From Nitrospirota bacterium (GTDB lineage: Bacteria; Nitrospirota; Thermodesulfovibrionia; Thermodesulfovibrionales; UBA6898), in NCBI GenBank assembly GCA_021811105.1, contig JAJZPM010000019.1, forward strand, positions 1-54,518: a DNA stretch of 54,518 nt. Direction: 5' to 3'. Shown here piece by piece: positions 39,203 through 40,693 of this stretch. Position numbers and translations under genes: made by a program. The notes below the pieces were generated by a model that was given only the letters and a program-made list of their open reading frames with translations, was not told the origin of the DNA and did no database searches. Each line of letters starts with the position of its first letter. The stretch's first letter is position 1.

Positions 39203-39230
39203 TTGACAGGCCGATTTCGGCCGGTATATA
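39203..39230 (+). promoter_or_regulatory. Strong sigma-70 promoter with palindromic spacer
   Basis: TTGACA (39203-39208), a 16-base spacer and TATATA (39225-39230). The spacer holds a GGCCGA-TTT-CGGCC palindrome, which could be an operator covered by RNA polymerase. Start of transcription predicted near 39237. Confidence 0.6.
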
Positions 39231-39236
39231 GTTGAT

Positions 39237-39390
39237 TCATGCTGATGAGAAATCTGTTTATCGCAGTGAAGTTCCTTAGGACCGCCTGGCATCTTGATGC
39301 CGTGGCCGACGGGGGATTCTGTTAGCGATTAACAGATAGAAAGAAGAACTCAGAGGCCACGGGACAACCCCCGTGGCCTTTTTTATTTCT
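39237..39390 (+). ncRNA. Structured leader or small RNA ending in a terminator
   Basis: From the predicted start to the T run lie three structured parts. A 13-base arm (39252-39264) pairs with 39325-39337 in 12 of 13 positions. The closed region contains a GGCATC-TT-GATGCC hairpin (39288-39301). A terminator stem GGCCACGGG/CCCGTGGCC (39355-39378) is followed by T6. CCGTGGCC near 39300 can pair with the terminator's 5' arm, so an antiterminator is possible. A 28-codon frame (39239-39325) starts with ATG. It matches no riboswitch class I can recognise. Either an attenuator for the broken gene downstream or an independent small RNA. Confidence 0.45.
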
Positions 39391-39421: not shown

Positions 39422-39673
39422 ATGCTCGACCTCGACTTCCACAAGGCCTGTCTGATGGAGTTGATGAGGGTCTCATCCGGAGAGGTGCGGATATTTCCGC
39501 TCTCGGGACTGGATCTGAGGCCTTACCGCCGTCTTGAGGAGATGCTATCTTTTCTCGACTCGAAGGACATAGAGGCGGACATCGCCGGGGTCCCCTTTGA
39601 ATTCCAGCGGGGGGCAAACAGGATGATGACAATGAAACGGAGAGCAGCGCATCAAAGGAGGGCTCGAAGATGA
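39422..39673 (+). pseudogene. C-terminal fragment of a SAM-dependent methyltransferase
   Basis: The 83-residue frame starts at LDLDFHKACLMELMRVSSGE and continues through VRIFPLSGLD to FEFQRGANRMMTMKRR. This resembles the last quarter of a conserved class of SAM-dependent methyltransferases (LDFHxxCxxELxRVS, then RIFPL and EFQRGAN). The SAM-binding N-terminal part is missing, and a terminator and RNA lie immediately upstream. It is therefore the truncated end of a gene. Confidence 0.6.
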
Positions 39674-39686
39674 AGTCGATTCATGA

Positions 39687-39956
39687 AAAAGGTATTCGTA
39701 CAATCCTGGTATCGATAGTGACGCTGCGTTCGATGCCGAAAAGATAATCCCCGGCCACGGGCCTGTATCAGGGAAGAAGGATGTCGGGGACATGAAAGAC
39801 TATCTTATCGCCTTTGACAAAAAGGCCAGAGAACTGGCTGCTGTTTCGGGAGACGCCCAATACATTGCGTCCGAAATAAAGAAGGCGCTGCCTGCGAGAG
39901 AAGAGCTCGATTTTCTCATCGTCTCTAACGTGCAGCAGAAATATTTAAAGAAATAG
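39687..39956 (+). pseudogene. C-terminal remnant of an MBL-fold hydrolase
   Basis: The 89 codons after a TGA at 39684 read FDAEKIIPGHGPVSGKKDVG, followed by a helical tail ending VQQKYLKK. This is the last part of a metallo-beta-lactamase-fold hydrolase, in which IPGHGPV provides a metal-ligand His. The N-terminal HxHxDH domain is absent and no start codon lies in place. It stops 11 bases before the methyltransferase at 39968, suggesting that gene once followed the full hydrolase. Confidence 0.65.
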
Positions 39957-39967
39957 AGGGAAAGCAT

Positions 39968-40693
39968 ATGGGACAATTTGAACAATCTCATTGGGCCGAG
40001 CCGGATTTCAGCAGGAAGTTCGTCGAAAGCGCCGACATCGCCATTGTTGAAAGAAAGAGGTCTCACGCCATCATGAAGTCGTTTTTCAGGCATCAGTTCA
40101 TGCATAAGGATGGACGGATAGACCTTCTCGATCTCGGATGCGGAGACGGCATACTGACCTACGAACTTATGCAGACCGAGGTCCCCCTCTCTGCTACGCT
40201 CGTCGACGGGTCGGAGGAGATGCTCGGGAAGGCCAAAGAACGCCTGAAGGACTATCCCGATATCCTAGCAGTGCGTGCGAGCTTTCAGGAGTTAATCGGC
40301 GGAAAGGTCATTGCAGACGACTTTGACTTTATCGTCTCGTCGCTCGCTATACACCACCTCGATATGAAGGAGAAGAGGGAACTATTCGGATGGGTCTATG
40401 CCCGCCTGAGAAACAACGGGTGTTTCATGAATATCGACGTGGTACTCGCCCCGAACGAGGTTCTGGAAGAGTGGTACATGGTCCTTTGGCAGGAATGGAT
40501 CACCGAAAAGAAGAAGGAGACGGGCATTACAGGCGACATCTACGGCGACACAATGAAACGGTATAAGGATAACAGGGACAACAAACCAGATAGTCTCGAC
40601 TCGCAAATGGATGCCCTGAAGGCGATCGGTTTTCGTGACATGGACTGTTATTACAAATACGGGATATTCACGATCTACGGCGGAAGAAAGTAA
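39968..40693 (+). CDS. Class I SAM-dependent methyltransferase
   Basis: A 241-residue methyltransferase. The SAM site is LLDLGCGDGILTYEL, followed by VDGSEEMLGKAKERL and the post-II region FIVSSLAIHHLDMKEK. The C-terminal part is longer than the minimal fold (TGITGDIYGDTMKRYKDNRD), suggesting a substrate cap. The substrate is unknown. It is preceded by an MBL-fold remnant and followed by a nitroreductase gene on the same strand. Confidence 0.85.
   Translation: MGQFEQSHWAEPDFSRKFVESADIAIVERKRSHAIMKSFFRHQFMHKDGRIDLLDLGCGDGILTYELMQTEVPLSATLVDGSEEMLGKAKERLKDYPDILAVRASFQELIGGKVIADDFDFIVSSLAIHHLDMKEKRELFGWVYARLRNNGCFMNIDVVLAPNEVLEEWYMVLWQEWITEKKKETGITGDIYGDTMKRYKDNRDNKPDSLDSQMDALKAIGFRDMDCYYKYGIFTIYGGRK

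Follow-up and report, generated by a model that had tools for sequence, protein, structure and literature searches.

What kind of RNA is made between the promoter and the terminator at positions 39203 to 39390 of this DNA from a member of the Nitrospirota (the window, i.e. the whole stretch of 54,518 nucleotides that was analysed), and what does it control? The first-pass annotation, made from the sequence alone, left the choice between a riboswitch, an attenuator and a small RNA. Following conservation, the co-evolution of stems, a reading-frame test, ribosome-mask folding and the presence of related leaders before trpE and leuA, it is the attenuator that stands, with a leader peptide, while a ligand-binding riboswitch is not needed. 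The element at 39203-39384 is thus probably a ribosome-mediated attenuator that governs transcription of a methyltransferase operon, with Trp17 of the leader peptide as its candidate control codon; leaving the tryptophan claim aside, the attenuation mechanism can be held with slightly more confidence. Conservation, base pairing, reading frame and alternative folds were all computed.

Promoter and transcript start

The promoter (39203-39232, forward strand) consists of a -35 box TTGACA (39203-39208), which is aligned in the homologues, an 18-nt spacer and a -10 box TATAGT (39227-39232). It matches the consensus at 11 of 12 positions, exactly where a near-consensus promoter had been proposed. 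In the whole 54.5-kb window, only three sites on both strands combine an exact TTGACA with at least five of the six bases of TATAAT, and only the one at 39203 has an ATG at leaderless distance. Because the -10 box ends about 6 nt 5' of the ATG at 39239, the transcript is predicted to start at or adjoining this codon, probably at its A, in which case it would be leaderless. The spacing is widespread: counted from the initial T of TTGAC, the ATG comes 34-38 nt later in 78 of the 83 curated leaders.

The promoter spacer does contain the palindrome noticed at first reading (GGCCGATTTCGGCC, 39209-39224). It was considered as an operator and rejected, being broken in a relative from the same genus (L002); since it is not kept even within the genus, such a role has no support and probably does not exist.

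Distribution and database searches

A DNA search returned homologues within the genus, the family and the order; Nitrospirae bacterium DBS2-1.bin90 is one of the close relatives. A covariance model (R1) matched 68 of 176 genomes of the order at E<=0.01, the weakest of these matches being chance, and 75 of 396 genomes of the phylum, another class included, at E<=0.001; a wider model (R2) gave further matches. By these covariance models the element occurs, with the same architecture, at about 100 places in Nitrospirota genomes. Weak matches without promoter, ORF or antiterminator (L099, L100, L101, L102, L104, L105, L130-L132, L152, L153 and L157) were discarded.

Several genomes carry two or three paralogous leaders before different genes (L074/L085, L084/L091/L092, L079/L089 and L067/L072), and in one (G108) they stand before trpE and before a methyltransferase. 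The window's own genome (G000) has a second, decayed copy on contig C4 (L107:2096-2224), with a weaker promoter, an ORF of 26 codons, and neither a terminator nor a plausible target gene. Two shortened leaders (L149:2116-2204 and L150:2067-2203) have kept the promoter, start codon and terminator and lost the part with the UGG and the antiterminator; both look like the leader in front of a branched-chain aminotransferase gene (L118).

No Rfam family matched in the window, at either the gathering or relaxed thresholds, and a search of 20 homologous loci returned two tRNAs and nothing else. An Rfam match to isrD was rejected, its score coming mostly from the terminator hairpin. In the window and the 20 loci, Trp_leader, Leu_leader, His_leader and Phe_leader all stayed below the gathering threshold. 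Phe_leader and His_leader share the layout of a leader plus terminator with the element, but their scores (20.4 bits where 55 are required, and 18.2 where the cutoff is 49, respectively) show that it is not a member of either. The aptamer models of the riboswitch classes gave no match at or near threshold in the same sequences, in agreement with the initial impression that no known riboswitch class fits.

Mutually exclusive RNA structures

The leader folds with a minimum free energy of -59.3 kcal/mol (z -4.38), and none of 200 shuffles was as good. Its closing stem P1 is formed by 39252-39264 (codons 5-9) and 39325-39337 (overlapping the last base of the stop codon), with 12 of 13 positions paired, precisely at the coordinates proposed beforehand. 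RNAalifold missed P1 on the first alignment, in which the 5' strand was misaligned, and the stem was recovered by single-sequence folds and a strand co-evolution test: in 44 nonredundant leaders the leader's own strands pair with a mean of -10.4 kcal/mol, versus -8.2 kcal/mol for strands swapped between leaders (z -6.0). The inner hairpin P3/P2 (39284-39306), which holds the antiterminator sequence, covaries in the homologues, with 45 cells changed on both sides, a number reached in 0 of 500 shuffles. The first-pass annotation had staked its structure on covarying base pairs in homologues; these were looked for and found.

The intrinsic terminator (39355-39384) reads GGCCACGGG-acaacc-CCCGTGGCC followed by T6, and is the strongest in the region. 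Its 5' arm GGCCACGG lies at 39355-39362 and its 3' arm CCGTGGCC, with the T run, at 39371-39384. All aligned leaders have this terminator, some with A-U to G-C changes, and it stands 5' of the structural gene, as in attenuators generally; that transcription ends here is predicted from the fold and the alignment.

A second CCGTGGCC is found at 39300-39307, identical to the terminator 3' arm. Because the antiterminator is a near copy of that arm, both segments can pair with the terminator 5' arm, as had been suggested for a segment near 39300. Across the homologues the pairs between antiterminator and terminator arm are held in 98% of cells, with five double changes (2 of 500 shuffles): in five leaders from four lineages an A-to-G change in the terminator arm is matched by U-to-C in the antiterminator (i.e. 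U-A becomes C-G). The homologues therefore support an antiterminator whose formation and that of the terminator exclude each other.

The leader reading frame

The 28-codon frame that had been put forward as a possible leader peptide (MLMRNLFIAVKFLRTAWHLDAVADGGFC, 39239-39325, forward strand, with the stop codon TAG at 39323-39325) is conserved in length and frame. In 82 of 83 homologous leaders the ORF has 26-30 codons, and exactly 28 in 44. It contains a UGG as codon 17 (39287-39289), and the distance from ATG to the UGG site is 42, 45, 48, 51 or 54 nt, always in frame, in 76 of 81 leaders; insertions and deletions in that stretch therefore keep the frame. From the UGG to the antiterminator, the distance runs from 9 to 17 nt, covering all three residues modulo 3, and the frame through the antiterminator segment gives AVA, PWP or GRG depending on the homologue. 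The stop codon again lies in a narrow range, mostly 21-30 nt past the start of the antiterminator. The frame being kept from ATG to UGG but not beyond, it seems that the position of the ribosome, and not the peptide, is the signal. With its constant start and length and its frame to the UGG, the ORF has the form of the short leader ORF of a ribosome-mediated attenuator, and its translation is predicted.

These results also bear on two other readings. It is hardly credible that the ORF encodes a RiPP precursor or another small peptide with a function of its own (AWHLxAVAxGGFY), on which the neighbouring methyltransferase would act: the C-terminal residues are alike in close relatives, but three frames are used after the UGG, the end of the peptide varies while the RNA is conserved, and the terminator stands between the ORF and the methyltransferase gene. 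A conserved peptide or RiPP core was rejected for the change of frame after the UGG. A riboswitch that binds a ligand, with the ORF there by chance, could be suspected from conserved stretches such as GCCGUGGC and GGGGGAUUCU and from the compact alternative structures. It is very improbable nonetheless, as these stretches are largely accounted for by the alternative helices, the ORF is conserved in its start, frame and length, relatives of the element sit before trpE and leuA, and no Rfam riboswitch came near its threshold.

Ribosome position and choice of structure

The effect of a ribosome on the attenuator was modelled by folding each leader up to the terminator loop with the ribosome footprint held unpaired, an equilibrium and not a co-transcriptional calculation. 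Of the 83 curated leaders, one with an unconvincing terminator was left out, so that 82 were folded. For the window's leader, the probability of the antiterminator is 0.00 without a ribosome and 0.45-1.00 with the A site at codons 3-17; it is 1.00 at Trp17, falls to 0.55 at His18 and stays at 0.00 from Leu19 up to the stop. Trp17 is thus about the last permissive codon in the model; with stalls beyond it, the antiterminator is no longer entirely free. Over the 82 leaders the mean probability exceeds 0.9 when the ribosome stands 7 to 4 codons ahead of the antiterminator, and is zero between 2 codons ahead of it and 6 codons past it; a second rise, at the stop codon, is seen in a minority of leaders whose stop comes late. 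Placing the front of the footprint anywhere between +12 and +17 does not change the outcome for a ribosome at the UGG. With no ribosome on them, some leaders (both trpE leaders among them) are predicted to be on rather than off.

E. coli trpL was treated likewise as a control. Its antiterminator formed in full only when the ribosome stood at Trp11 or one codon further on, was partly paired just before Trp11, and did not pair with the ribosome absent or at the stop codon. In silico, with this control, the position of the ribosome therefore selects the structure.

The mechanism that can be proposed is as follows. Transcription would begin at the A of the ATG at 39239, so that ribosomes load directly on the leaderless 28-codon ORF. 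With no ribosome on the leader, or with one at the stop codon, CCGUGGCC (39300-39307) would be locked in P1/P3/P2 or in P3/P2 alone, upon which the terminator would form and an RNA of about 146 nt would be the only product. A ribosome stalled with its A site anywhere from about codon 3 to Trp17 would break the hairpin and let CCGUGGCC pair with the 5' arm of the terminator, and with this antiterminator formed RNA polymerase would read on into the operon. Codon 17, the conserved UGG, is the one that probably exerts control, so that the switch would likely be induced when charged tRNA-Trp runs short. In short, an early ribosome stall, mostly at the Trp codon, appears to be what makes this switch of 146 bases activate methyltransferase, exporter and amino-acid genes.

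An RNA of about 146 nt, ended at the terminator, is to be expected in the cell, and it could have an added role in trans, as does the attenuator RNA rnTrpL of Sinorhizobium meliloti (PMC7298713). That the RNA is chiefly a trans-acting small RNA, with the terminator as a mere 3' end, would fit its own promoter and strong terminator as well, yet it is improbable: throughout the phylum the element is followed by the same few gene families, which share its orientation and often begin no more than 10-50 nt further on, and neither the complementarity of the antiterminator nor the conservation of the frame would be explained.

Is tryptophan the signal?

Within the attenuator, the UGG is the candidate for what is sensed. 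It occurs in frame in 2 of 10 leuA leaders versus 72 of 83 others (Fisher 2.6e-5, which overstates the evidence since the lineages are not independent), and the trpE leaders, with WKAWRWPW and WKAW, have extra Trp codons at permissive positions. The UGG takes part in the pairing of P2 as well, and the need to keep that structure may account for some of its conservation. Among 73 aligned non-leuA leaders CGG was never found in frame at this site, which argues for a constraint at the codon level, because CGG would strengthen P2 (U-G becoming C-G); it is present in two later leaders (L141 and L142). The UGG is absent from five leaders from elsewhere in the class (L121, L141, L142, L146 and L154), which precede the methyltransferase family of the window's intact gene. 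Following the CGG in L141 and L142 and these methyltransferase leaders without UGG, the chances that tryptophan is the signal of the attenuator are put at about even. A single Trp codon is, moreover, a weak sensor in comparison with classical leaders, and the genes downstream are mostly not tryptophan genes; the link between tryptophan and the methyltransferases is unexplained. Leucine was considered as a universal control codon, since most leaders have a Leu codon within the permissive zone, and rejected: its position is not fixed, and by eye it is not visibly richer before leuA.

The main alternative is that the same attenuator senses slowed translation in general (e.g. by ribosome-targeting antibiotics or starvation for any one of several amino acids) and not tryptophan. 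In the folding model nearly every stall position between codons 3 and 17 releases the antiterminator, and many of the targets (YedA exporters, Nim-like oxidoreductases, metallo-beta-lactamase folds, methyltransferases) look like detoxification or export functions. There are also precedents: the toiL uORF of E. coli senses many antibiotics (PMC12121999), and trpL of S. meliloti ties a Trp leader to drug efflux (PMC7298713). Such general sensing is possible but rather doubtful, as it leaves unexplained why most non-leuA leaders have an in-frame UGG at about the last permissive codon, and why extra Trp codons are found before trpE.

Probable target genes

The gene directly behind the leader had been described as a truncated methyltransferase. 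This is correct: 39422-39673 (forward strand) matches the C-terminal part of a SAM methyltransferase-like gene, the first of the operon, that is intact in three relatives of the same genus, although the remnant itself has no Pfam match. It is followed by the remnant of a metallo-beta-lactamase-fold gene (39676-39956, forward strand), which by eye matches the end of the L045 protein. Relatives of the same genus carry undamaged versions of both genes, so the window's lineage has lost the first part of the operon. Next comes an intact class I SAM-dependent methyltransferase of 241 aa (39968-40693, forward strand; Pfam Methyltransf_25, 5e-14; PDB relative 3dtn), whose family sits directly behind the leader in L021 and L061, and it is this gene that the switch probably still acts on here. 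The genome's own trpE and leuA have no such leader in front.

Elsewhere, the nearest recognised gene behind the leader encodes a trans-aconitate-like methyltransferase in 42 of 82 cases, a YedA-type exporter in nine, leuA in seven (eight with L098), a second methyltransferase family in six, a third one, in the window's genus, in three, a Nim-like oxidoreductase in three and trpE in two, while a metallo-beta-lactamase fold, a branched-chain aminotransferase and a chorismate mutase occur once each. The names of these families were taken from Pfam and NCBIfam matches and from sequence signatures; only YedA passed the curated NCBIfam cutoff, the Nim-like oxidoreductases remaining below it. At one locus (L123, from about position 2238) a leuA-like gene lies directly behind the trans-aconitate-like methyltransferase that follows the leader. 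The yeast relative Tmt1 methylates 3-isopropylmalate, a precursor of leucine. Given this gene order and the activity of Tmt1, the methyltransferase may be linked to the leucine pathway.

Comparison with known attenuators

With attenuators of the E. coli trpL type the element shares a short leader ORF, a control codon (here the probable one, Trp17) just before the hairpin or antiterminator segment, an intrinsic terminator, trpE and leuA among its targets and the same behaviour under the ribosome mask. It has no relationship with them at the level of Rfam, and differs in its leaderless start, its usually single Trp codon, its 28-codon ORF and its targets, which are mostly methyltransferases, exporters and oxidoreductases. 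A closer parallel for the start is found in S. meliloti, where the attenuator RNA (trpL/rnTrpL) begins at the ATG of the leader ORF (PMC7298713), so that a leaderless leader peptide, predicted here, is common to both. The alphaproteobacterial trpL has 14 codons, several of them Trp, and precedes trpE(G), whereas the present leaders are 26-30 codons long, as a rule contain a single Trp codon and mostly have other targets. Ribosome stalling on a uORF also alters RNA structure and induces stress or resistance genes in the case of E. coli toiL and the B. subtilis vmlR leader (PMC12121999, PMC9226507), but toiL acts through repression of translation and Rho, in contrast to the intrinsic terminator and conserved Trp codon found here. 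The element fits no described sequence family that was found, and a search of the open-licence literature returned no leader-peptide attenuator from Nitrospirota, which is not proof of absence.

Implications

If the attenuator reading is correct, the element would represent a new family of RNAs that Rfam 15 does not include, and would bring leader-peptide attenuation to the Nitrospirota. Due to the leaderless start, loading of ribosomes on the leader would depend on initiation without a Shine-Dalgarno site. The family would show that a single attenuator can be moved between genes and that its control codon can be changed. As a tentative extension, held at somewhat less than even confidence, a leaderless attenuator family spread over the phylum may have moved between two kinds of genes, those for amino acids (trpE, leuA, branched-chain aminotransferase) and those for stress or detoxification (methyltransferases, YedA exporters, Nim-like oxidoreductases), with tryptophan shortage or slow ribosomes serving as a general alarm for genes that have no role in making tryptophan. 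The element would also predict when methyltransferase, exporter and Nim-like genes of unknown function are switched on.
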